Below are positions 9,704-41,365 of a stretch of DNA of 64,000 bases, piece by piece; the first letter of the stretch is position 1, and each line of letters starts with the position of its first letter. The position numbers were made by a program, and so were the translations under genes. The notes under the pieces are model-generated. The model made no database searches. It saw nothing but the letters and a program-made list of their open reading frames with translations, and was not told where the DNA came from. Source of the stretch: Arthrobacter citreus (GTDB taxonomy: Bacteria > Actinomycetota > Actinomycetes > Actinomycetales > Micrococcaceae); NCBI RefSeq assembly GCF_009192745.1, contig NZ_VTFV01000002.1, forward strand, positions 434,001-498,000. Reading direction: 5' to 3'.

Positions 9704-10021
9704 TCAACGCGAAGGAGCGCTGGGGGCCTGCACGGACGGATAGTAGAAGTCGAAGTCGTCATAGGGATCCCGCCAGGCTGAGTCGTCCCGCGCAATACGC
9801 ACGACGGCGGCTGCCGGCACCCAGCGGTTGTGGGCCTGGCCGTCGTCGTCCATCCAGTGCACCAGCACCTCGCTGCGCGTCCAGGCTACGGCTTTGCCGT
9901 CCACCGCCAGGGAACCGAAGCGGCAGCGCACGTACGGCTCCTGCCGGTACGGGGCGTGCGAAACCGGGGGGCGGGCGGCTGAGGGGCTGCGGAGCGGGAC
10001 GGGATGCGCGGTAACGGTCAT
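9704..10021 (-). CDS. Hypothetical protein (105 aa)
   Basis: This small soluble protein has a Pro-rich N terminus and a conserved-looking core with many aromatic and acidic residues (VHWMDDDGQAHNRWVPAA, YDDFDFYYPS). ATG 10021 (MTVTAHPVP) is preferred to the frame open to 10108, because the longer version would run into the end of the upstream gene. The function is unknown. Confidence 0.6.
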   Translation of the reverse strand: MTVTAHPVPLRSPSAARPPVSHAPYRQEPYVRCRFGSLAVDGKAVAWTRSEVLVHWMDDDGQAHNRWVPAAAVVRIARDDSAWRDPYDDFDFYYPSVQAPSAPSR

Positions 10022-28847: not shown

Positions 28848-29618
28848 TTACCTCCAGCCGGCGTCGGGCGCCACAAGCTTGACGATGTTCTCCAGCAGCG
28901 CCGCGTTGTAGTCGACGCCGAGCTGGTTCGGCACGGTGACCAGCACGGTGTCAGCAAGCTGGACGGCGGCGTCGTCGGCCAGTTCCTTGGCGATGACATC
29001 CGGCTCGCCGACGTAGCTGCGCCCGAACCGAGCCAGCCCGCCTTCGAGGCGGCCCACCTGGTCCTTGGCATCTGCCTGTGCGCGGAGACCGAAGTAGCGC
29101 CGGTCCTGGTCGCTGACCAGCGGGATGACGCTGCGGCTGACGGAGACCTTGCCCTGCCCGGGGTGCCCGGCGGCCTTCCACGCCTCGTGATAGGCATGGA
29201 TCTGCTCGGCCTGCAGTTCGTCGAATGGAACGCCGGTGTCCTCGGTGAGCAGGGTGGAGCTCATCAGGTTCATGCCCTGTTCGCCGGTCCACTTTGCCGT
29301 CGCCCGGGTGCCTGAACCCCACCAGATCCGGTCACGGAGACCGGGGGACTGGGGCTCGATCGGCAGCAGACCGGTGTGCCCGGTCATCTGCGGGTTCGCG
29401 GGCGCCATGCCGCGGCCGGTGATGGCGGCACGGAAGATCTCGGTGTGGTGGCGGGCCATGTCCGCGTCGGTCTGTCCGTCGCCGGGCACGTAGCCGAACG
29501 ATTCAGCGCCGCGGAGCGCAGGCTCGGGGGATCCCCGGCTGATGCCGAGCTGCAGCCTGCCCCCGCTGATCAGGTCCGTTGCGGCGGCTTCTTCAGCCAT
29601 GTACAGCGGGTTTTCGTA
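28848..29618 (-). pseudogene. LLM-class flavin-dependent oxidoreductase, 3' part of a gene split by an element
   Basis: These 256 codons are the C-terminal three quarters of a luciferase-like monooxygenase (YENPLYMAEEAAATDLISGGRLQLGISRG...). The first 83 codons lie 11.5 kb away at 41117-41365. Joined at the TA crossover, the reading frame is restored (IDMR then YENPLY) to 339 residues, the usual family length. An ATG at 29624, supplied by the element's att arm, leaves an open frame, but without the N-terminal strands it is unlikely to make an active enzyme. The parent probably used FMN or F420. Confidence 0.9.
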
Positions 29619-29643
29619 GCACATCTCGGGGTTGTGGCACCCG
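29617..29643. other. attL of the integrative element
   Basis: The chromosomal half ends ...GGGTTTTCG, then the TA core at 29617-29618, then the element arm GCACATCTCGGGGTTG. The arm is the inverted partner of the arm at attR with one mismatch in 16 bases. Confidence 0.85.
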
Positions 29644-29907
29644 TTGTTTTTGGAAGCTCCGCATCGGACCCGCGTAAATATGGCGCTTGTAGGGTATCTT
29701 GTTCATCTCGCCCGTCGGGCGGCGATGACACCCCTATTAGTATGCCCGGGAACGTGACGGCTCACTCCAGTTCGGGGCGCCACCCTGCGCCTCAGATCAA
29801 ATACAGCACGTAGTGGATCGCTCGATAATGTTGCTCGCCCGGGCTATTGCGCGGTAACTTCGCGTGCCTAAAACAGCTTTTGGAGCCCTGGGGGGACAAT
29901 GTAAGCC

Positions 29908-32739
29908 ATGAGTGAGATCTGCTTATATGGTCGCGAGAGCGAGCGGGACACCATAATGGCAACGCCTGCTGGGTTCGTGCTCGTCGTAGGTGATTCCGGC
30001 ATCGGGAAGTCGAGTTTTCTCTCGAGTCTGACAACTTGGCCGGGTTCACCCCTGGTATCAAGCCCAATCGTTCTGAAGTCGGTCGAGGGTTCATTGCAGA
30101 CAGCTCTCGCCGACGCGATTAGTGATTGCATGTCGCAGTACCTGACCGATGAGCCAGACGCGCGCACCGCTTGGACCATCGTGAAATCCGTTGGGGATCG
30201 AGCGAAGACGATCACAGGCGGTGAAATTGGTCGTGCAGTCTTCGCACGCGTTCTTACCTATGCCGAGTCGAAGCTCGGCGAAGAAGTCGTCGAAATTGGT
30301 CGAAAAGTGCTTGGTGACGTTTCCAAGGGGGGGATTTTAGGCTTTGACGATCAACTAGCGTCGATCCGAGTTCCTGATCGCGCGAAAGAATTGTGCGATA
30401 TAGCTGCAGAATTCAGCCAAGCTGTGGATCGACCAATTGTGCTCCGACTCGATAACGCCGAGCGCCTCGTCCCATCCGATCGCGGGCTTATGGCAGAACT
30501 TGTCGACGCCTGTGTCGGCCCGGTGTGGATCGTGGCTTGTGTTACACCTCATCATGCGGCGGGCGACGAGATCATTCAGCAGGTGAGGATGCGAGGCGCT
30601 GAGCCGCATGAGCTACTTCCCCTCGCCCCTCCCGCTATCGAGGAGTGGCTCATTGCCAGTCATGTGCCCCCGGCTCGCTGGGACACAATTGTTCGGCTCT
30701 CAAACGGGTACCCGTTCTTCGTTGCCGATGCCATCCAGTTATCAGGCGCAGGTGCATCCCTGGATGGAATCACCGCTCCGAATGGTTTTGAGGCGCTAAT
30801 GCGCGAGTCCTGGAACAACATCCCTGAGAATCTTCGAGCGATCGCGGCTCGGCTGGCCCCATTCGTTGACCCACCGAGCGACGATTTCCTTCTTCGATAC
30901 CTTAGATTCGATGTTCTGGAATGGGCCATTTTGACCGATTCGTTGCTTGAGTCCGGCATCTTCGTCCGCCGCTCGGATGGTTCAGCATGGTTCCACGAAC
31001 GGCGGCGCACCTTCATTTGGGAACGGATCGGTGATAAAGCGCGCAAGCATGTTGCTGGGAAGGCATTCGCCGACGTGTCGTCGTGGGTGGACGGTCGGAG
31101 CAATTTTGAGCTGTGGGTGCCCTCCGCAACAGCGGTTCTCGTAAGAGCCGCCGACATGTCCGCTATGGGGAGCCTCACTCAGGACCTTCTCGCCCTGCCC
31201 GACGAAGGCATCGCGCTGCTGTGGGGTCTGATCGAGGTGATAGAGCCAGCTTCTACACTCGCTCCCTTCGCCGAGATCGGACAGGTGGTGCGCCATGCCG
31301 AGGCGCGTTCAGGGCAAGTGATAGACGCGCTGACCACCATGACCCAACTCGAAGCGAAAGGCCTGATTGAGACGGGAGAGGTGGGTCGCACCCGCCTCGC
31401 GCGCAGCAATGTGCGACAAAACACCGACTACGCAGCCCTGCTCGGTGAGATTCAACTGCGCTTCCACGCCACTCCAAGGCCCCGTCTCGCAACGGCAGCC
31501 TTCGACGGGTTTATTCGACCCGTGATCGGTTCTTTCGACGGAGCGATGATTACTTTGGGCAAATCGAGCCTCGTCACCCATAAGGATGAGACGGAGATGC
31601 TGCGGGATCCTTCCGTCCTCGGAAGTGCTGGCGAGCCGATATTTCTCGGAGCAACGGTGACCGTTGATGGCCAGCAGTTCAGCTTCACTGCTAAATTCCC
31701 CAATCGGGAGGCTAGAGATGAGGCAAAGCGCGCGGTGCTTGCCATCACCGACGTGACCTCTCGTGCGCAACCCGACCGAGTGCTTGACCTACCACGACCC
31801 CGCCTGCGCCACGCCCGCTATCGAATGGCGACAAAATTACTAAAGCTAAAGCTGGCGAACACTTCGGCACCTACGCCCGAAGACATCATCACCTTTTTGG
31901 ATTCGCGGGCGCATTACGCGGAAGCACTCGGAACAGTCAGTACAACCGATGAGATTGAAGTACTCAACCTAGGGCGGCGACGCTTCATCGTTGACACGCG
32001 GACAGCGCCTGACTCCTGGACCTGGTTCGATGTTGCCACTGACAACTTGCGGTCTACACAAGACATCGCGGGCTTTGGGCCAGACATTCACGATCCTCTT
32101 CTCGAGCTCCAGCTACGTGCTGGCGGCTTTTTGGCTGGAGAGGAACACATCGTTAGGACCGTGACTCAGCACGGCTCGAAGCCGTCGATTCCACATCCAC
32201 TGACGGCAGTACTTGACGACATAGACGCAGCTGGCAAGGAGTACAACTCCGGGCTCCGCTCGGTGCTTTTCATGCCGGATGCCGAGATGCTCGAGCGAGA
32301 GATTCGCGCCGAGCGTCAGCGGCTCTTCAGCGTCGTCGACGCGTTGGCCTCGGTTGGCGTCGAAGGGGCGACAGATCACCAACCATCGTTACTCGTCGGT
32401 TTTTGGGAAGACACAGACGCGGGATGGGTGAGCGACTTCGGTAACTGGAGTGCGTGCGCTTTAGAGGTTGATGATGGCGAGGGCGCCGTGGTCGTTCGGA
32501 GACTTCCAGGATCGCCCTTTGATCCCTCCGCTTGGCCCACTCTCACTGTGCCTAGCGTGTTTTCGGACCACGCCGGCGCAACTGTTTCCTCATGGACGAG
32601 CGGCTTTGCGGACTCAGTTATCTCGCCGCTGCTGGGGTACCTCGATCGTGACGCACGGATGATGGATCTAGATACGCCGATCGGCCGAATGGTTCGCAGC
32701 ACGCATGACATCGTTGGAGAGAGCGACATCGCCCCGTAA
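29908..32739 (+). CDS. STAND-like P-loop NTPase of unknown family (943 aa), candidate defence protein
   Basis: This large cytoplasmic protein opens with YGRESERD and a Walker A motif GDSGIGKSS (residues 28-36). A Walker B-like IVLRLDNAE follows at 177-185, then WIVACVTPHH at the sensor position, and LSNGYPFFVADAIQ at a place where AAA_16/ORC-type STAND proteins have a conserved GNP(F) turn. A winged-helix-like region follows. The last 550 residues match nothing I know and show no membrane helices. STAND ATPases with unknown C-terminal parts are common antiphage sensors. It is the only gene between attL and the internal att-like arm. Codon use is less GC-biased than in the chromosome. Confidence 0.75.
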   Translation: MSEICLYGRESERDTIMATPAGFVLVVGDSGIGKSSFLSSLTTWPGSPLVSSPIVLKSVEGSLQTALADAISDCMSQYLTDEPDARTAWTIVKSVGDRAKTITGGEIGRAVFARVLTYAESKLGEEVVEIGRKVLGDVSKGGILGFDDQLASIRVPDRAKELCDIAAEFSQAVDRPIVLRLDNAERLVPSDRGLMAELVDACVGPVWIVACVTPHHAAGDEIIQQVRMRGAEPHELLPLAPPAIEEWLIASHVPPARWDTIVRLSNGYPFFVADAIQLSGAGASLDGITAPNGFEALMRESWNNIPENLRAIAARLAPFVDPPSDDFLLRYLRFDVLEWAILTDSLLESGIFVRRSDGSAWFHERRRTFIWERIGDKARKHVAGKAFADVSSWVDGRSNFELWVPSATAVLVRAADMSAMGSLTQDLLALPDEGIALLWGLIEVIEPASTLAPFAEIGQVVRHAEARSGQVIDALTTMTQLEAKGLIETGEVGRTRLARSNVRQNTDYAALLGEIQLRFHATPRPRLATAAFDGFIRPVIGSFDGAMITLGKSSLVTHKDETEMLRDPSVLGSAGEPIFLGATVTVDGQQFSFTAKFPNREARDEAKRAVLAITDVTSRAQPDRVLDLPRPRLRHARYRMATKLLKLKLANTSAPTPEDIITFLDSRAHYAEALGTVSTTDEIEVLNLGRRRFIVDTRTAPDSWTWFDVATDNLRSTQDIAGFGPDIHDPLLELQLRAGGFLAGEEHIVRTVTQHGSKPSIPHPLTAVLDDIDAAGKEYNSGLRSVLFMPDAEMLEREIRAERQRLFSVVDALASVGVEGATDHQPSLLVGFWEDTDAGWVSDFGNWSACALEVDDGEGAVVVRRLPGSPFDPSAWPTLTVPSVFSDHAGATVSSWTSGFADSVISPLLGYLDRDARMMDLDTPIGRMVRSTHDIVGESDIAP

Positions 32740-32810
32740 AGCCAGCAAGATTGTAGTTGCCCGATGAGGTGAGCCAGACGGCTCACAAGAGGAACGATCA
32801 CGATAATGTG

Positions 32811-32840
32811 TGCTAGCGCATCTTGGGGTTGATGCACTCG
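32811..32840. repeat. Internal att-like arm
   Basis: TGC, a TA core (32814-32815) and the arm GCGCATCTTGGGGTTG with its continuation to 32840 match the inverted arm at attR (41090-41114) in 23 of 25 bases. That is closer than the attL arm matches attR (20 of 25). It lies between the NTPase and the membrane operon. Confidence 0.75.
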
Positions 32841-32976
32841 CGCGGTCCGCAGCTATCACGGTCCGACCCCGAGTGTCCTTTAGAACTTGGTCTACCGCCT
32901 GACGTCCATCATCGATGGAAGGAAAGGACTCTTAAACAGAAGGACCGCCGGTGTGTTTGCTCGGTACGGGTGTCCA

Positions 32977-33444
32977 ATGCCAGCCGGTATGGTTATGGAC
33001 ATGCTGACCTGGGAATATTATCTAACCGTCCTCCTGCCGATGCTGTCAGTGTTGACTACTATGCTGCTGGCCTACTGGATGCTCCTGCGGCAGCGCTACG
33101 AGCGCCGCCATCAACGCGTCCTTGACGAGATCAGGCTTCGCGAAACCGAGCTTAGGTACGCTTCTGCGGTCAGCACGCGGGGCACGCACGAACTGATCGA
33201 ACTCGTGTGGAAAAGCGTGCATACGGTGAACGAGTTAGAGAAGGATGAGGCCGCACAGCAGTCAGCGGCGCTGCAACACGGCCTAAACGAGCTTCGCGAG
33301 ATCCAGTACCGGGAGATCGAGATGCTCCTGGCAAACCTCGACGATGATCGCGGAGAGCGGGAATTAGCGCCCTTGCGTCGGCTGCTGGACGAACGTCGTA
33401 CAGAGTTGAGCGATCTGACAGATTCGGGAAGAAGCGACGCATGA
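32977..33444 (+). CDS. Membrane-anchored coiled-coil protein (about 155 aa)
   Basis: One membrane helix lies near the N terminus (about residues 13-37, YYLTVLLPMLSVLTTMLLAYWML). A long charged helix of about 110 residues follows, predicted to form a coiled coil (RQRYERRHQRVLDEIRLRE and onward). Start sites at 32977, 32989, 32995 and 33001 are all in frame and none has a strong ribosome binding site, so the start is uncertain. The stop overlaps the next start by four bases (ATGA), so the two products are probably made in equal amounts and may form a membrane complex. No known family. Confidence 0.65.
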   Translation: MPAGMVMDMLTWEYYLTVLLPMLSVLTTMLLAYWMLLRQRYERRHQRVLDEIRLRETELRYASAVSTRGTHELIELVWKSVHTVNELEKDEAAQQSAALQHGLNELREIQYREIEMLLANLDDDRGERELAPLRRLLDERRTELSDLTDSGRSDA

Positions 33445-33929
33445 CCGAAGGAACTCAAACTTCCGCCGCGCTGATTCCGAATGCCGATACCGACGCAGCT
33501 CCAGAGAACTTCTCATCTGGACCGGCTGAGGCGATCGTTGCGGCATTCAAGACCAACCCTTCGGTCAAGATTGTACTTAACGACGCGCAGCATGCCCTCG
33601 TCAACATGTCGGACGACTTCACACGGGATGTGGGGGTCCGTGCTGTTGAGATCGCCGGAGCACGAAAGGCGAGCGCCGTCGACGTGCCAGACGTAGTGGC
33701 AGCTTTGGCTGAAATTCGTCCCAAAGACCCGGAACGTGGTCCTGCTTGGGCATGGGGCGTGCTCGGAATCGTGGCCGGAGGATTGTTGTCATTACTGATA
33801 ACGCTAGTCGCGCCAAACGTTCCCAATGACTGGAAGGGACTTGTCACCACCGGTGTGATGGTGGCCATTCTCATCTGCGGCATCTGGGGGTACAAGCTGG
33901 TCTTCCCCAAACGTGCGAAGAAGATATGA
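33441..33929 (+). CDS. Histone-fold-like domain fused to two membrane helices (162 aa)
   Basis: Residues 1-28 look disordered. Residues 41-92 (NDAQHALVNMSDDFTRDVG, then VRAVEIAGARKASAVDVPDV) follow the archaeal histone pattern: helix 2 with M..D..RD, a run of A.E.A, then RK-x-VxxxDVxxAL. Two membrane helices follow at about 104-123 and 133-153, and the C terminus is basic (KRAKKI). A histone fold held at the membrane would be unusual in bacteria. The match is by eye and the fold could instead be another three-helix bundle. The gene is translationally coupled to the coiled-coil gene upstream. Confidence 0.65.
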   Translation: MTEGTQTSAALIPNADTDAAPENFSSGPAEAIVAAFKTNPSVKIVLNDAQHALVNMSDDFTRDVGVRAVEIAGARKASAVDVPDVVAALAEIRPKDPERGPAWAWGVLGIVAGGLLSLLITLVAPNVPNDWKGLVTTGVMVAILICGIWGYKLVFPKRAKKI

Positions 33930-34380
33930 TCAGCGATTGCGATTGGGGATTGCGCCGGCTGCACAAACCCACAGAGCAAATCCCGCCGGCTCGCCTACGA
34001 TCTCCCCAACGAGAATGAGTGCAACGCACAGAACACCTCGTAAACGAGGCTTGAGACGCGGTGACGTTTCACGAGCGTTAGAGACTAGGCTGGCTCCGCG
34101 TCGACGTATTGCCTGATCGCCCGCTCATCCGCCGCCTCGACGCATGACGACGACCTTCGTCTCGGCTCGCTCCAGCGACGGTCACCAGGTGATGGAGGCG
34201 ATTTCTCCTAGCCGTGCCGTCCCCAGATTTAGCATGGACACAACGAAACCGCAGCGAGGCGATCCGCTTGGCTGACTCCGCGTGAAGGCATCCACCTCCG
34301 TCGACAAGCCGGTTGCGCCTCAACACTCTGGCTTCAAAGCCCACAACATAACTGACATTATGGTGTGCCATATTCTTCGG
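33930..34380. other. Gene-free stretch inside the element
   Basis: These 450 bases separate the convergent histone-fold gene and the membrane-anchored protein. A short hairpin at 34036-34049 (CCTCG, TAAA, CGAGG) may end transcription. I see no ORF with codon bias or ribosome binding site and no other repeat. Confidence 0.4.
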
Positions 34381-34989
34381 TTACAGGGTGAAAAACATTG
34401 GGCCGCCTGGGGTGGCAGGGTCCTCTGATGCAAGCCGCAGCTTGCCAAATTCATCCCTGATCCAGCGCTGTCCCAGTCCGTCTCCAAACATGACCCATCG
34501 TTCCGTAGGGCGAACCACGGGGGACTCGTTCGGCTCATACTTTCGTCCTTCTATCGTCCGCTGCCCCCCGCCCTCGATAATGGGCCAATTACCTATTACG
34601 TGGTGGGTGGAACTCAGCTCACCGTTCACGAACGGACGCTCGGTGATCTGCACAGCAGTAATCGGTTCCTCCCCGCCGTTGTGAACCCGGTATATCCGAA
34701 ATCGTTGACCGAAATCGTTGTATGCTCCCTCGGAGGAAAGTGTGACTCGACTTGCCAGCCGCCTCATCCGCTGCTCGGCTTCTTGAGCCTGCATTCGGCG
34801 GAACTCTGCGCGATCTTCCGCAGCCTCTGCCCTCTCAGCCTTCAGACGTTGCCCGTCGCGCGAAGCGAGATAAACGGATATTCCGACTGCGACTAGGGTC
34901 CCTGCTGCAGTTAGCCACTCGGGGAGCGCACTCCAGTCAAAGCCAGTATCACCAGCGGGGGCATGCATGGGAGGCATCGTGGGCAGCAC
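34381..34989 (-). CDS. Hypothetical membrane-anchored protein (up to 202 aa)
   Basis: A membrane helix at about residues 24-43 (WLTAAGTLVAVGISVYLAS) is followed by a charged coiled coil (about 44-78, RDGQRLKAERAEAAEDRAEF) and a beta-rich domain (YRVHNGGEEPITAVQITERP). Proteins with this layout are common in actinobacterial chromosomes and mobile elements, with unknown role. Starts at 34989, 34977 and 34968 are all possible. The upstream end overlaps the small ORF that follows rep. Confidence 0.65.
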   Translation of the reverse strand: MLPTMPPMHAPAGDTGFDWSALPEWLTAAGTLVAVGISVYLASRDGQRLKAERAEAAEDRAEFRRMQAQEAEQRMRRLASRVTLSSEGAYNDFGQRFRIYRVHNGGEEPITAVQITERPFVNGELSSTHHVIGNWPIIEGGGQRTIEGRKYEPNESPVVRPTERWVMFGDGLGQRWIRDEFGKLRLASEDPATPGGPMFFTL

Positions 34990-35117
34990 CGGTCAGGGGC
35001 CCTCCGGGGGCCGCTGCGCGGGGCCTTCTCGGCGCTGCGCGCCTCGATCCAATGACCCGCCAGCGCTCCACTGGAGCCCTGGCGGATCGGCTGCTGCTGG
35101 CCGTCGAAGGTGCTCAT
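34911..35117 (-). CDS. Possible small protein coupled to rep (68 aa)
   Basis: The ATG overlaps the rep stop by four bases (ATGA), as the other genes of this operon do with one another. The first 35 residues (MSTFDGQQQPIRQGSSGALA) look protein-like, while the remainder is Pro/Cys/Arg-rich and overlaps the next gene by 79 bases. It may be an accessory factor or merely a chance frame. Confidence 0.3.
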   Translation of the reverse strand: MSTFDGQQQPIRQGSSGALAGHWIEARSAEKAPRSGPRRAPDRCCPRCLPCMPPLVILALTGVRSPSG

Positions 35118-37435
35118 CGCGCACCTCCCGCGACCAGCAGACCGCCGTTCGCCCGGAGCCGCTCGACCTTCCGATCAAGCTCGGCCCGGCGCGCTTCGAG
35201 GCGCTGGCGACGGTCCTCCTCGGTGAGCACCGGGCAGGCGTCCCCATGCCTCCCGTAGGAGCCGGCGGGGCGCGGCGTGCATGTGCACATCGCCGCCAGA
35301 CGCTGCTCCGCCTGCCAGCGCTCGATCTCCTTCAGCCGCTTCTTGGCCGCAATCTCGGCAGCACGCTGCTCGGCCTCCTCGGCGGCTGCGGCAGCGGCCT
35401 GCCTGCGCCGTTCGCTTTCCTCGGCAGCCGCGACCTCGATAGCAGCTTTCTGCGCGAGGTACGCGGCCAGCTCGGATTCCGGGATCAGCTCGATCACGTC
35501 CCGGTTGTTTTCCATCAGGATCGACACGGCGAGGAAGCGGGCCGCATCCTGAGCACCCTTCACTACTGCGACCGGAGCCATCTCGTGCGTCGTCGTGATC
35601 TCGCCCAGCGGCTGGCCTTCGCGATTCAGCACCGGCTCGATCCGGCGCACGGAGTTCACCCTGACCCTGCGGATGCTCACGAGCATCTCGGCGCGGATCA
35701 CCGGGTAATCCTCATGATCGTTGCCGGTCAGCTGCAGCGACTCCGGGATCGAAACCTCGACTGCCCACCCAATGCGGCGCAGGAACTCGTCGATGTCCAC
35801 AGGAGGGAACCGCTTCGCACCCTGAGCGTTGAACGCCAGCACGTCGCTGGGCTTGCGCGCCTTCATGGTAAGTCCGAGCGACTGCGGCGTCTCGGTGCTC
35901 GACATCATGATCAGCCGCGGCGCGACCACCTGCCCGCTGCGGCTGTGCCGCTTGTACGCTTCCGTGGCGCGGTGGTTATCCGTGTACCGCAACGTCTCGT
36001 CGTACGTCGGCGTGATGTCGAAGCGGGCATCATCGTGATGCGTGATCTTCGCATCCCCGACGGCTTCCAGCGCGTTGCGCCCCGGAGGCTGCACGTACGG
36101 CCAGTCATAACCAGCCAGAGCCACCAGCGCCTGAGTCTGCGTGGCGACCTCATCAGCAAGGATGCCCTTGCCAGACCCCTTCGGGCCGCAGATCGCCAGC
36201 ACCGACTTGTGCCACGTCGTACCGAGCCCGTCGGCGACCAGAGCGCCACGCTTCTGCTCGTACCGCGAGTGGAGCATCTCCAGCCGCGGCAGATCGTCGG
36301 CGAACGCGTCTCGATCAGCGACCTCGGCCACATCGAGCGTCATCCCGTCCATCACCGCGCGCCGAAGCTTCCGCTTCCTGGCAGTGAGGCTCTTTCCTCC
36401 CTCGGCAGCCGACACGCGGCCAACCATGTGCGCGTCCAGTTCGGCGCTGAAATCGAAGTTCGCCACGATGCGCCCGCGCCCGTACTGGTACTTGCCCGGA
36501 TTGCCATCCTGCTTGTTGTCTGTTAAGTACGTACGCTCGATCTGACGCACGCCCGGAATCGCATCTGCCCGCCGCGACTCGTGCGGCAGGTACTCACAGA
36601 GGTCGAAGAACGCCTTCGGTGCAGCACCGGAACCCTTGTGCTCGTCCCCGCCCTCCTCGGCCACGACCTCCTTCGGCACCCGCACGCGAGCACTCGGGAT
36701 CTCCAGCGCGTTCGAGACCGTTCGGGTCTTCGGGCGCTTTTCCTTGAACCACAGCACGAGGTGCCAGTGCAGGCCCTTGAGACCGGTACACCGACAGTCC
36801 ACTGTGCCCTCGTCCACTTCCACGATCCGATCGAGCGGGTGAGCTATGAAGGCCGACCACATCGTGCCGAACTGCTCTTCGAGGAGAGCGAGGCCGGCTT
36901 CAAGCTGCTCCTGGCTATACATCGGCTCGCCCGTCTCCGGGTGGTTCGCGTACTGCATCACTGAGAACACCCGCGAGAGCGTCTGAGCACGCTTCACCTG
37001 CTCCTGCGTCTCGGAGTTCTTCTGCCTCTCGAAGAAGGCGCGCGCAGCCTCAATGTGATCAGGCGACGAAGCCACCTCGAACGGTTCCACGTCGTCGCTC
37101 GAATCAGCTCCCGGCACCTCGAACGTGGAGTAGTCGACCGGGGTATCCGTTGGAGCAGATGAGGTATCCGTTTCTGAAACGGATACGCGCGAACCCAAGG
37201 AGTCGCGCGTGCACACAGGCTTTTGACCTGCGGAAACATCGTTCTCGGTGGTGTGGTCGTCGGTCGTGTATCCGATATCGGTATTCTGAGCGGGATAAAA
37301 TTCCGGCTCAGACCCCATGTTTTCGCTGTTCGGAGCGGCGACGGGCAGCCCGCCTGCGGCGGGTGCCAGGCTGGGCCCTCCGGGCGGGTTCAGATCGGCG
37401 GGAGCAGTGCTGCTGGCGCGGTCCGGGGCGCTCAT
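35114..37435 (-). CDS. Replication initiator: HUH endonuclease plus SF3-like helicase
   Basis: This 773-residue multidomain protein has a disordered, Ser/Thr/Asp-rich N terminus of about 120 residues. The HUH nuclease motif GLHWHLVLWF is at 221-230, with the likely catalytic Tyr282 in CEYLPHES. A P-loop GPKGSGKG at 417-424 marks a superfamily 3-type ATPase. The C terminus is an Ala/Glu/Arg coiled coil with a small Cys/His cluster (CTCTPRP...HGDACPV). Such proteins nick an origin and unwind DNA for rolling-circle replication, so the element can probably exist as a replicating circle. ATGA overlaps join it to the genes on either side. Confidence 0.85.
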   Translation of the reverse strand: MSAPDRASSTAPADLNPPGGPSLAPAAGGLPVAAPNSENMGSEPEFYPAQNTDIGYTTDDHTTENDVSAGQKPVCTRDSLGSRVSVSETDTSSAPTDTPVDYSTFEVPGADSSDDVEPFEVASSPDHIEAARAFFERQKNSETQEQVKRAQTLSRVFSVMQYANHPETGEPMYSQEQLEAGLALLEEQFGTMWSAFIAHPLDRIVEVDEGTVDCRCTGLKGLHWHLVLWFKEKRPKTRTVSNALEIPSARVRVPKEVVAEEGGDEHKGSGAAPKAFFDLCEYLPHESRRADAIPGVRQIERTYLTDNKQDGNPGKYQYGRGRIVANFDFSAELDAHMVGRVSAAEGGKSLTARKRKLRRAVMDGMTLDVAEVADRDAFADDLPRLEMLHSRYEQKRGALVADGLGTTWHKSVLAICGPKGSGKGILADEVATQTQALVALAGYDWPYVQPPGRNALEAVGDAKITHHDDARFDITPTYDETLRYTDNHRATEAYKRHSRSGQVVAPRLIMMSSTETPQSLGLTMKARKPSDVLAFNAQGAKRFPPVDIDEFLRRIGWAVEVSIPESLQLTGNDHEDYPVIRAEMLVSIRRVRVNSVRRIEPVLNREGQPLGEITTTHEMAPVAVVKGAQDAARFLAVSILMENNRDVIELIPESELAAYLAQKAAIEVAAAEESERRRQAAAAAAEEAEQRAAEIAAKKRLKEIERWQAEQRLAAMCTCTPRPAGSYGRHGDACPVLTEEDRRQRLEARRAELDRKVERLRANGGLLVAGGAR

Positions 37436-37683
37436 CGGCGACCACCGCCCTTACCGTAGCGCTTGATGGCAGCCTGGTGCGTGACGCCGAGGGCATCAGC
37501 GATCTTGACCCAGGTCGCGCCGTCGGCGCGGGCGTCAGCGACGGCCATCTCGACGACCTCGTTGAGCACGGATCGGAGTATGCCGAGGTCGTAGAGGCGG
37601 GCCTCGGCGTCGGTCAGGGAAGGGTCTCCCAGGCGCCAGCGGAAGCCTTCGATGTGGTGGGACGCGGCGGCGTTGGCGTTCAT
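37432..37683 (-). CDS. Small helix-turn-helix protein (83 aa)
   Basis: The C-terminal half contains a helix-turn-helix of the sigma-like/MarR-small kind (WVKIADALGVTHQAAIKRY), ending in a basic KGGGRR. It is translationally coupled to rep (ATGA overlap at 37432-37435) and to the small gene upstream (ATGA at 37680-37683). It probably binds DNA at the element's origin or controls rep expression. Confidence 0.7.
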   Translation of the reverse strand: MNANAAASHHIEGFRWRLGDPSLTDAEARLYDLGILRSVLNEVVEMAVADARADGATWVKIADALGVTHQAAIKRYGKGGGRR

Positions 37684-37892
37684 CGGACACCGCCCATCAC
37701 GGAAGCGACGACGGCGCATTGTCTCGGGGTCAGGGGCGTGCAGGCGAGTCGCTCACCAGCCAGACGGCCGGCAGCGAGGGCAGCGGAAAGCACGGGATCA
37801 AAGCCATCGGCTTTCTGATCTGAGGTCGAGTCCGGGACCTGAGCTGGGCGGCCCGGCGCGAATGCGCGCGGAGTGTCAATAACGACAGACAT
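37680..37892 (-). CDS. Small hypothetical protein of the rep operon (70 aa)
   Basis: This is the first gene of the rep operon, with AAGGAC upstream of ATG 37892. The protein is helical at its C-terminal half (DPVLSAALAAGRLAGERLA, then TPRQCAVVASVM). It has no known family. Its stop overlaps the helix-turn-helix gene by four bases. Confidence 0.6.
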   Translation of the reverse strand: MSVVIDTPRAFAPGRPAQVPDSTSDQKADGFDPVLSAALAAGRLAGERLACTPLTPRQCAVVASVMGGVR

Positions 37893-37934
37893 CACGAGTG
37901 TCCTTACAGGAGGAGCTTTCCGCTCCACTCCCAA

Positions 37935-38144
37935 CAGCGGGGGCGGACTGTTCCCCGTCGCCTTGGACTTATTCTCGGTTCAACCGGTGGTTACGGTCTC
38001 CCCGTGTCTCGGTCTGTCGCCACCCGAGACGCCATGAGCGAGGTGGAAACCCGGTGGCGAACCGGGCTGGCGCCGACCTCTGTGATGTCTGCAACTATTC
38101 TCACATGACACGACTTGCACCGCAATGACCGATTAACCCGTGCG
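37935..38144. other. Candidate replication origin / rep operon control region
   Basis: This gap between the rep operon and the integrase holds inverted repeats at 38006-38030 (GTCTCGG facing CCGAGAC) and 38050-38066 (CCCGGT facing ACCGGG). A nick site for the HUH protein would be expected near rep, so this is the best candidate. I cannot identify a nick sequence. Confidence 0.35.
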
Positions 38145-39554
38145 TCAGTTGCGACGCGCCTCTATTCGTACAAGGTCCGGGTCGAACTTCACATGCCCCG
38201 GCTGGATCGGATCAATGGTCACAGTTACCAGCTCGTTCACCAGCATCCGGCGACGATCCATGTCCAACGCCTCCCACTTCCGCGCGACTGATTGGTGGCG
38301 CTGCCGGGTGCCCGCCGGATCGTCGATGCCGGCCAGCAAGCCGGCCGACGGCGACACGGTACGGTCCAACAACGCGACGTCGAGCTCAGTGATGCGCGCC
38401 TGGGCCAGCGCGAGCCCCTCGCTGATTTTCTTGACAGGCTGACGAATGTCAGCGAGCAGCGGGGTCAACTCCTCAATTCTCTCAACCAATGCCTTGCGCT
38501 CGGAGAGCAGCGCTTCGCGGTCGACCGACACGTCCTCCGGAGGTGCGACCAGGTCATGCACGTCCACCGCTGACAGCCGGGTGAGCACGGCCTCGATCAC
38601 CATCGCATCGACCGGATCACGCTGACGCGACAAGTGGAAGTGCACGCCGCACTTGTACGTCCCGACGCCCCGGCTGTTGTTCCCCGAGACGAGGGTCGCC
38701 CCGCACTTCCCGCACAGGCCGACCGATGACAGCAGATATTTCGGCTGATTGCCCTGTTTGCCCGCCCGCCGCACGTTGTCCTCCAGCTTCACCACCGCCG
38801 CCCGCCACGTCGGCTCGCTGACGATAGACGGGAACTTCTCGCCCTGGACCGGGAACAGCTCCCCGGTCGAGTACTTCTTGATGAAGCCGGCGTAGAGCGG
38901 GTTCGCCAGCAGATACCGAACAGCGTCGATGGAGAACGCAGAGTTTCGGGCCGTGCGGTGACCGGCGGAATTGAGATCCTCGCGGATGCGGCGGATGGAC
39001 AGCGAAGGCTCGCCGAGGAAGGCATCAAACGCCCTGCGGACCGCAGCCGCCTGCTCGGGGATAAGCTCGCCATCTTTCGTCCAGCCGAACGGAGTCCAGG
39101 CCGAGGCGGGGATCCCTTCAGCCCGTCGCCGGGCATTCGACCGCAGCTGACGTTCGGACTTTCGACGGGTCTCGAACCGCGCCATGATCGTAAGGAACCC
39201 AGCGCGCATCTCGCCGTCCGCCGTGGAGAGATCGATCTCTCCGTCCACCGTCGCCACGTTGACTCCGGTGTCCATCAGTGTGTTCATGTCGCGTGTCGAG
39301 CGCAGCAGCCGATCGATGTCGACGGCGACGACCAGCTCGAACTGTCCCGCCTCGGCGTCGCGGAGCATCCGTGCCCAGTCCGACTTCGGCCCACGGGGCT
39401 TTGAAGCCGAGACATCATTGTCTTCGTACCACTCCACGATCTGCCAGTCACGGGCGCTGGACAACTCCGCGATCTTTCGCCGCTGCGTCTCGACGCCCCA
39501 CCGCTCGCCAGTAGCGTCCATTGAGATCCGTACATACGCGGCGACCCTTTTCAT
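38145..39554 (-). CDS. Serine integrase (site-specific recombinase)
   Basis: This 469-residue large serine recombinase has catalytic Ser11 in YVRISMDATGER. The resolvase fold continues through VVAVDIDRLLRSTRDMN to about residue 150. The recombinase domain and a zinc ribbon (LCGKCGATLVSG...YKCGVHFHLS) follow, with a coiled coil at about 345-395. Such enzymes join attP and attB at a two-base core without other factors, matching the TA core seen at both ends of the element. No excision factor gene is evident; one of the small genes could serve. Confidence 0.93.
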   Translation of the reverse strand: MKRVAAYVRISMDATGERWGVETQRRKIAELSSARDWQIVEWYEDNDVSASKPRGPKSDWARMLRDAEAGQFELVVAVDIDRLLRSTRDMNTLMDTGVNVATVDGEIDLSTADGEMRAGFLTIMARFETRRKSERQLRSNARRRAEGIPASAWTPFGWTKDGELIPEQAAAVRRAFDAFLGEPSLSIRRIREDLNSAGHRTARNSAFSIDAVRYLLANPLYAGFIKKYSTGELFPVQGEKFPSIVSEPTWRAAVVKLEDNVRRAGKQGNQPKYLLSSVGLCGKCGATLVSGNNSRGVGTYKCGVHFHLSRQRDPVDAMVIEAVLTRLSAVDVHDLVAPPEDVSVDREALLSERKALVERIEELTPLLADIRQPVKKISEGLALAQARITELDVALLDRTVSPSAGLLAGIDDPAGTRQRHQSVARKWEALDMDRRRMLVNELVTVTIDPIQPGHVKFDPDLVRIEARRN

Positions 39555-39745
39555 GCAGCCAACGCTACAACCTCGACGTGCGCGACCTCACACCGCTGGT
39601 CAGGGTCTTGTCGGCCCATGGCTTCGGGAGACGGCAGCCAAGACGTCCGCCCCGCCGAACAGGACTCAGTTGCTTCCCCCCGCCGCAGATTCCGCGGCTC
39701 CTAGAAAGTCGCCGATGGCTAAATCCGCCCACTGTCGAACCTACA

Positions 39746-40882
39746 ATGAGACGCGTGCATCAATCGGATGGAGAACCTGACTCGTTTGTCCCTCCTGACT
39801 GGGGAGGCTGGGCGGTGCCGGCTGCCACAAATCCTCCTGACTGGTCCGGCAACTGGGGAGCGCCAGTCCCTGCCACGAATCCTCCTGACTGGTCCGGCAA
39901 CTGGGGAGCGCCAGTCCCTGCCACGAATTCCCCTGACTGGTCCGGCAACTGGGGAGCGCCAGTCCCTGCCACGAATTCCCCTGACTGGTCCGGCAACTGG
40001 GGAGCGCCAGTCCCTGCGCCCGCACCCACCCCTGACCCTGCCCTGGTTCTCTTCGAGACACCCAGCCAGCACAAGGTCTTACCGAAGGTTCACGTCTTCG
40101 TTGATGAGTACGGTGATAGGAACTTCAAGAACAACCGTGAATCCGAATGGTTCACCATGACCGCTCTCATGGTCGAACAAGAGCATGTGGATCACATGCG
40201 GGCGGCCGTAGCTGGGCTGAGGTCCGTCTACAGGATCCCGGCGGGCAACAAACTGCACTGGGTTGACCACTTCAAGGTGAAGCAAGAAGCCAGGAGATTC
40301 ACTGCCCTCCACCTTCTGACCTCGATCCCCAACATAAGGTTGGTCAACGTTCTGCTACACAAGCCTTCGGTGGGCCTTGGAGCCCACATGCGCAACGAAC
40401 AAGCACGCTCATACCATTTGATGACGCAGTACCTCATGGAACGAGTAGCACGCGCGGCCGCAGGTTGGCCTGGCGGTCCGCGACTTGCCAAAGTTTCACT
40501 TGGCGTCGTCGGAGGTGTGGACCACGATGAAACCATGATGCAGCTTCATGCTGCCGCACTTCGCAATGATGCCCGAACACCCTTCGGCAACCTCCTCTGG
40601 CCATTCAAGTGGTTCGATTCCGCGAGGCTCGATGGCCTTCAGGCCGCCGATGTGTTCTCCGGCTTTTTGACCGCTGCCCTAGTTAGTGGTGACGGACGCT
40701 ATTACTCCCGCGTCTTACAACTGGTCTGTACAGATCCTCGTGGAAACCACTTGGGCGAGGGGATGAAAATTTTTCCGAACAACGCCATCCGACTGGTGAC
40801 GGAGTCCGCCTGGTGGCGAAGCTGCCCAGGTGCTCATTACTGGGATGAGCAGGGACTCCGGATAGTTTCGGGACAAAACTAA
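39746..40882 (+). CDS. DUF3800 protein with N-terminal tandem repeats (378 aa)
   Basis: The N terminus carries four 16-residue repeats (core PDWSGNWGAPVPAT, residues 29-92), preceded by a degenerate copy. From about residue 115 a DUF3800 domain follows, with the acidic motif VFVDEYGD and a distal D-rich motif (DSARLDGLQAADVFSG) that suggest an RNase H-like metal site. DUF3800 proteins are frequent in mobile elements and defence islands, with unclear function. ATG 39746 begins just before the repeats. The frame open to 39521 crosses the integrase start and is rejected. It is divergent from the integrase. Confidence 0.8.
   Translation: MRRVHQSDGEPDSFVPPDWGGWAVPAATNPPDWSGNWGAPVPATNPPDWSGNWGAPVPATNSPDWSGNWGAPVPATNSPDWSGNWGAPVPAPAPTPDPALVLFETPSQHKVLPKVHVFVDEYGDRNFKNNRESEWFTMTALMVEQEHVDHMRAAVAGLRSVYRIPAGNKLHWVDHFKVKQEARRFTALHLLTSIPNIRLVNVLLHKPSVGLGAHMRNEQARSYHLMTQYLMERVARAAAGWPGGPRLAKVSLGVVGGVDHDETMMQLHAAALRNDARTPFGNLLWPFKWFDSARLDGLQAADVFSGFLTAALVSGDGRYYSRVLQLVCTDPRGNHLGEGMKIFPNNAIRLVTESAWWRSCPGAHYWDEQGLRIVSGQN
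39830..40021 (+). repeat. Four 48-bp tandem repeats inside the DUF3800 gene
   Basis: Four nearly identical 48-bp units encode NPPDWSGNWGAPVPAT or its Ser variant. Differences are confined to a few bases, mainly the second codon of each unit and the end of the last unit. Unit number could vary between strains. Confidence 0.9.
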
Positions 40883-41089
40883 GGCCTTTGGGCGGGGCTC
40901 GGGTGGCGTTTCTCGTGTGGTGGCGAGTGATCCGGTGTCCCGGCTCCGGCCAATTCCTCGCAGCCCCTTCCGAAGGCCTTAGTGGTCTCAACCCTAATGA
41001 TTCGCGCGGTCCTGTGCAATCCTCCGGCGTAGGCGTTCATGAGGGGGCTCTGGTCCCCGTGACGGTTCTGTGACCGCCTAGGTTCTGCT

Positions 41090-41116
41090 CAAGTGCATCA
41101 ACCCCGAGATGCGCTA
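41090..41116. other. attR of the integrative element
   Basis: The element arm CAACCCCGAGATGCGC (41099-41114) is followed by the TA core at 41115-41116 and the chromosomal half CCTCATGTCG. Joined to the attL arm around TA it gives a palindromic attP. Confidence 0.85.
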
Positions 41117-41365
41117 CCTCATGTCGATTACGCCGGTGCCCAGATCGATCCGGGACGTGCGCGCAGCCATCGCGGCGAGCAGCGGGAACGGCGACGCCTG
41201 CTGCGGCGCGAAGTGGTGCACACGTACGAACGCACCATCGCCGCCGACCTCTTCAGCCGCGACCGCCAGGTCGATGGCCTGCAGCAGCGCGTCGCCGGCC
41301 GTGGGGGTCAGGGAACCCGGGACGTCCTGATAGTGGCCAAAGGAAAGGAATCCAATCTTCTTCAC
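41114..41365 (-). pseudogene. LLM-class flavin-dependent oxidoreductase, 5' part of a split gene
   Basis: These 83 codons run from GTG 41365 (VKKIGFLSFGHYQDVPG) to IDMR, where the element supplies an immediate TAG stop. GGAGAAGG precedes the start at a good distance. The sequence is the N-terminal barrel segment of the LLM monooxygenase whose remainder is at 28848-29618. The upstream promoter should still be active, so a short useless peptide may be made. The enzyme is lost unless the element excises. Confidence 0.9.

Follow-up and report, generated by a model that had tools for sequence, protein, structure and literature searches.

The locus raises two questions: what divided a gene for a luciferase-like monooxygenase (LLM) into two distant halves, and whether the DNA between them had to enter in the direction in which it now lies. 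In the window, by which we mean the whole stretch of 64,000 nucleotides that was analysed, the minus-strand LLM gene was cut between its IDMR and YENPLY codons by an element of ~11.5 kb (Table 1). As evident from the junctions, 11,496 bp (29619-41114) separated two copies of the dinucleotide TA, and joining the LLM halves at TA (29617-29618 / 41115-41116) gave a single open frame that ran through IDMR-YENPLY to the stop. The original prediction, which had described an integrative element splitting this gene, was borne out to the base by the restored frame, and attL, attR, attP and attB could all be rebuilt, as it had claimed. The frame of the 5′ part entered a TAG stop created at the junction, and the element end supplied an in-frame ATG two codons upstream of the 3′ part, which gave an ORF at 28848-29624.

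Table 1. Features of the integrative element and of the divided LLM gene, in window coordinates.
Feature	Position	Strand	Basis
LLM 3′ part (YENPLY...)	28848..29616	-	PF00296, 3.7e-11
Core TA, junction with LLM 3′ part, distal to integrase	29617..29618	.	junction comparison
attP arm, distal; LLM sense CAACCCCGAGATGTGC	29619..29634	.	15/16 symmetric with integrase-side arm
943-aa AAA_16 ATPase, cargo	29908..32739	+	PF13191, 2.5e-8
185-aa protein, probably membrane-anchored (by eye)	32887..33444	+	ORF; Pfam scan
162-aa protein, probably membrane-anchored (by eye)	33441..33929	+	ORF; Pfam scan
202-aa protein, function unassigned	34381..34989	-	ORF; Pfam scan
773-aa replication-initiator-like protein	35114..37435	-	distant relation to relatives' Rep_OBD/RNA_helicase Rep
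95-aa protein, weak HTH_23 match under cut-off, family-conserved	37432..37719	-	Pfam; relatives' matches
Large serine integrase, 469 aa, Resolvase + Recombinase domains	38145..39554	-	PF00239, 1.3e-22; PF07508, 1e-10
DUF3800 protein, between integrase and att site	39521..40882	+	Pfam
attP arm, integrase side; LLM sense GCGCATCTCGGGGTTG	41099..41114	.	15/16 symmetric with distal arm
Core TA, junction with LLM 5′ part, integrase side	41115..41116	.	junction comparison
LLM (luciferase-like monooxygenase) 5′ part, 83 aa ending IDMR	41117..41365	-	PF00296, 6.5e-13

The uninterrupted gene was looked for in related genomes. An LLM match was present in 52 of the 59 genomes searched, and 30 loci were fetched, one of which was the window's own. 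In all 29 other loci the LLM alignment ran uninterrupted through the predicted attB (74.7 to 92.4% DNA identity), as had been foreseen. Of these loci, 27 were from same-genus genomes, one from a same-family genome and one from a same-order genome. A further same-genus genome (G157), the 28th besides the window's own and outside the 29 loci, had its LLM match broken into two pieces that lie in different frames. A close integrase was absent from all seven other same-genus genomes in the host-family sample of 149 genomes. From this absence, together with the empty attB in relatives, we conclude that the element is a recent visitor of the window genome. It is a horizontally acquired integrative element whose attB lies in a conserved stretch of the LLM gene. 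Two observations that had been named as speaking against this reading, relatives that carry the element but lack an intact LLM allele and a differing crossover, were not encountered.

The expectation of a large serine integrase on the element was confirmed by the two domains of the 469-aa protein, in which the PF07508 match scored 42.2 bits (cut-off 21.1) and the profile matched the catalytic domain of the TP901-1 integrase at 9e-14. In particular, S11, which we take to be the catalytic serine, was invariant in all eight aligned sequences, as were C281, C284, C302 and H307; Pfam gave no zinc-ribbon match in the protein. Identity with the SCCmec Ccr recombinases was considered and rejected, as the NCBIfam CcrB equivalog gave 74.8 bits (cut-off 900).

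The 149 host-family genomes contained eight others with an integrase 66-73% identical, and all eight elements were found inside the same LLM gene; the far LLM half of one (G081) was located separately, and a fragmentary 62% match in G016 (L014) was left out. A scan of genome contigs gave 57 loci, and the final set comprised 55 loci including the window, with integrase identities of 65.9% or more. L063, L065, L066 and L069 were dropped as duplicates of L114, L090, L104 and L117, and seven loci with integrase identities below 45% (L118, L119, L121-L124 and L126) were also dropped. An E-value of 1e-100 was reached in a class-wide sample of 394 genomes by the window genome and G012 alone, and the family is therefore rare. 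Phage and plasmid collections yielded 721 and 183 matching records, respectively, all below 60% identity and none of them a family member; the best phage identity among the matches listed was 33.8%.

The attP rebuilt from the window carried arms around TA that were symmetric at 15 of 16 positions, and equal or better symmetry was obtained in 2 of 200,000 random TA-site pairs from the window. The window attB arms were symmetric at just 5 of 16 positions; the family means were 12.8 of 18 positions for P against P′ and 4.8 of 18 for B against B′. Roughly symmetric half-sites are usual in large serine integrases. The near-palindrome described in the original prediction was thus present in the arms, but its statement that large serine integrases require a palindromic centre did not stand, as A118, Bxb1 and phiC31 are described as relying on a non-palindromic central dinucleotide (PMC3556126; PMC3783163; PMC10661055). 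The two window junctions had TA alone in common. Both ends could be read in 41 insertions; TA stood at the boundary of both junctions in every one, and the bases common to both were exactly TA in 23. To the right of TA, 40 of the 41 had no further common base and one had a single base; to the left, 23 had none and the others had up to 10, owing to the similarity of the attP arm to the 5′ side of attB. Since 23 of the 41 insertions had no further common base on either side, the junction comparison places the crossover at TA, a 2-bp core, in agreement with the prediction that it is fixed to these two bases.

An LLM half adjoined the integrase end of the element in 51 of the 55 family loci. The main finding, judged by these junction sequences, is that relatives of the element face both ways at one site: the integrase end lay beside the LLM 5′ half in 22 insertions, the window among them, and beside the 3′ half in 29 (two-sided binomial p=0.40 against 1:1). 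One of the 51 orientations, that of L078, was assigned by eye from the 5′ flank. The 41 complete elements were divided into 17 one way and 24 the other. Near-identical elements, defined by at least 99% identity across 95% of the length, fell into seven groups, of which five included both orientations. For example, the 8.6 kb elements of L098 (Gulosibacter) and L099 (Tessaracoccus) were 100.0% identical and oppositely oriented, and the same was true of L083 (Actinomyces bowdenii) and L084 (Arachnia) at 99.9%, L090 (Glutamicibacter) and L120 (Janibacter) at 99.9%, and L102 (Nigerium) and L107 (Bowdeniella) at 99.7%. Orientation was unclustered on the integrase tree (54 rows, 51 of them labelled, the short L125 left out), which showed 14 orientation changes against a shuffled-label mean of 16.0, with 101 of 500 shuffles as low; four sets of identical tree rows carried both labels. 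The elements apparently face both ways because TA is its own reverse complement. The LLM gene is disrupted alike by either insertion direction, as the 5′ part runs into TAG and the 3′ part gains an ATG: the TAG stop directly followed the 5′ junction in 44 of 45 family insertions, and the ATG stood two codons ahead of the tyrosine codon at the 3′ junction in 45 of 47.

Both orientations were also found in six of the eight genera having at least two cases. All seven Brevibacterium insertions faced the same way (p=0.015, uncorrected and picked post hoc; L074, L077, L087, L091, L105, L106 and L113), and the host family of the window was divided 8 to 2 in the opposite sense (p=0.013, likewise uncorrected and picked post hoc). 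Orientation is not fully host-independent; some hosts are biased in an otherwise mixed family.

We consider it very probable, from this comparison, that these elements represent a natural serine-integrase family whose palindromic TA core does not dictate the orientation of integration. The integrase would recombine the element-end attP with attB inside the conserved LLM stretch, and both sites would be cut at the central TA. The resulting 3′ overhangs TA would be self-complementary, joining would be possible whichever way attP and attB synapse, and the orientation would be left open at each integration event. As attL and attR would each be half P and half B, parallel pairing would be preferred, and under the published structural model excision could stay direction-specific, in which case such a core would be only a small burden to the element. 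The palindromic TA core would therefore predict that integration goes both ways and that excision stays directed. Two-way integration matches the genomes, and directed excision is what we infer. The site, the 2-bp core and the presence of both orientations among relatives with the same integrase are established by genome comparison, and the contrast with non-palindromic cores is drawn from published systems.

In those systems (A118, Bxb1 and phiC31), a non-palindromic central dinucleotide is reported to set orientation by itself, and symmetric-core mutants to recombine both ways (PMC3556126; PMC3783163; PMC10661055). For A118 integrase, whose native core is GG, the core bases alone are described as setting orientation, and both synapses were productive with symmetric-core mutants, giving deletion/inversion values of 64.5/35.5 and 52.5/47.5 (PMC3556126). 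A toolkit review states that Bxb1 with a palindromic GC core gives both orientations (PMC10661055). On structural grounds, attP × attB synapsis has been argued to possess two-fold symmetry, and attL × attR to favour parallel alignment (PMC3783163).

Opposite copies could in principle have arisen after integration. If integration were orientation-specific, a later in-place attL × attR inversion via the palindromic core would account for them, as antiparallel attL × attR recombination at a TA core would turn the element round where it lies, with the observed junctions as the outcome, and would likewise mix the orientations on the integrase tree. However, antiparallel attL × attR is disfavoured in the model published for A118-type integrases (PMC3783163), and a self-complementary core makes orientation-specific integration hard to obtain. 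In addition, the opposite Arachnia copies L084 and L086 differed at 3 of 1480 element bases and at 12 of 249 bases in their LLM 5′ parts, and are therefore not one clone caught flipping. We regard this explanation as improbable; some opposite pairs could be in-place inversions. That the family also flips in place, with the integrase, with or without a directionality factor, inverting the element between attL and attR, is a tentative and rather unlikely addition to two-way integration. If it were true, one strain population would hold both orientations at the LLM gene, which would form a slow invertible switch with host-dependent bias.

The mixed orientation might otherwise be an assembly artefact at a palindromic junction. 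The junctions have imperfect inverted repeats of ~18 bp (on average symmetric at 12.8 of 18 positions) and the L092 contig breaks at TA, but the repeats are far below read length, host LLM flanks stood on both sides in 41 of 41 complete cases, and two cases are in chromosome-level records by title (L088, NZ_CP017298; L091, NZ_CP073089), and we find such an artefact very hard to credit. The opposite biases of Brevibacterium and the window's host family would fit two orientation-specific sub-families, with opposite gene order or different integrases, that share a common site. This is already contradicted by near-identical whole elements (up to 100.0%) lying both ways and by the identical integrases with both labels in four sets of identical rows, which leave it virtually no probability.

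Two-way integration through a native palindromic core was compared with known systems. The A118, Bxb1 and phiC31 integrases are similar in their Resolvase and Recombinase domains, roughly symmetric attP half-sites and central 2-bp crossover, as described in PMC3556126; in contrast, their native cores are non-palindromic and orientation is fixed, whereas the present family has a palindromic TA core and faces both ways. A Resolvase domain, PF07508 and a 2-bp core common to attP and attB, by which large serine integrases are recognised, were all present, and the usual, though not strictly defining, non-palindromic core that fixes orientation was replaced by TA with 22 versus 29 insertions. The A118 symmetric-core mutants (G1C, G2C) and GC-core Bxb1 share the self-complementary core and both orientations, but these are laboratory constructs, whereas the palindromic core here is native to a natural family. 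Integrative and mobilizable elements (IMEs) with a serine recombinase, such as Tn4451 and the Streptococcus rumA IMEs, are likewise described as having a serine integrase, a disrupted dispensable gene and a 2-bp crossover (PMC5704250). IMEs have a relaxase according to the same account, and a relaxase match was present in 45 of 50 relatives' loci; the window element had the integrase and precise att junctions of an IME, but no relaxase was found in it by two tblastn relaxase queries and Pfam searches of its eight proteins. Actinobacterial AICEs also combine Rep and integrase, and serine recombinases were counted in 19 of 144 AICEs in one survey (PMC3218068), but a TraB/FtsK-type transfer protein was not found among the eight scanned proteins of the window element by Pfam. 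ICE_SsuBM407_mutT of Streptococcus, compared by description alone, is a serine-integrase element inside a luciferase-like gene, but that target is described as secondary for this triplet-integrase ICE (PMC4701971).

A literature search, which covered mainly open-access papers, returned no report of a natural palindromic-core large serine integrase or of these elements. In a survey of thousands of large serine integrases, TT and AA cores are named, and "palindrom-" is absent from the main text (PMC10083194). That orientation is set by the central dinucleotide alone was established with engineered sites; the present family is a natural experiment, in which one integrase family, one target site and a palindromic core are combined in 51 scored insertions. 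It shows that a mobile element can do without control of its orientation. With att sites now defined to the base, it may be asked whether excision is direction-specific via the asymmetry of attL and attR, and why a single orientation is seen in some hosts.

Only part of the element is shared with its relatives. The 95-aa protein was matched in 52 of the 65 loci L062-L126 (duplicates counted). The 773-aa protein was 87% identical over its full length to L068; its own Pfam match was not found, and its sole link to Rep is a weak helicase match to the Rep_OBD/RNA_helicase protein of L099 (25% identity, 6e-6). The 943-, 185-, 162- and 202-aa proteins and the DUF3800 protein had no match in L062-L126. 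The AAA_16 ATPase and the two small membrane-anchored-looking proteins that follow it (29908-33929) are absent from relatives' elements and could form an undescribed defence or cargo module; PADLOC assigned no family to any of the eight element proteins, this ATPase included. Relatives' elements carry the Rep_OBD/RNA_helicase Rep with a MobA/VirD2-like or Mob_Pre relaxase. Those scanned as examples also had a mercuric-reductase-like flavoprotein, or a P-type ATPase with an ArsR-type regulator, for which we infer mercury and cadmium roles, Pfam giving the folds alone.

Four loci departed from the simple pattern (L092, L096, L116 and L125). The contig of L092, from a Brachybacterium MAG, starts exactly at the core TA, as though the assembly had forked, and the same MAG carries a second family element, L078. 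In L096 (Kocuria carniphila, near 9900), another gene lies at the integrase end and the LLM 3′ half is distal; a 5′ half of this LLM family was not found in that genome, which suggests that the att region has undergone deletion or rearrangement. The elements of L116 (near 9930) and L125 (near 6600) lie in other genes, with TA again at the integrase-side junction, and these insertions are secondary sites, whose distal element ends did not turn up; the L116 genome is without a close LLM, and that of L125 has an LLM of 82%.

At C3:1259906-1261282 (L129, G000:C3:1252000-1270000), the window genome (3.55 Mb) encodes another serine recombinase, a distant one of 27% identity. It was rejected as a non-palindromic-core comparison family, as its four relatives in 395 host-family genomes, at 42-49% identity, were too few and too distant. 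In L113 (7383-9926), another insertion, of ~1.7 kb, splits the LLM 3′ half that flanks the element. The DUF3800 protein starts with roughly four near-identical repeats of 18 residues (PDWSGNWGAPVPATN...).
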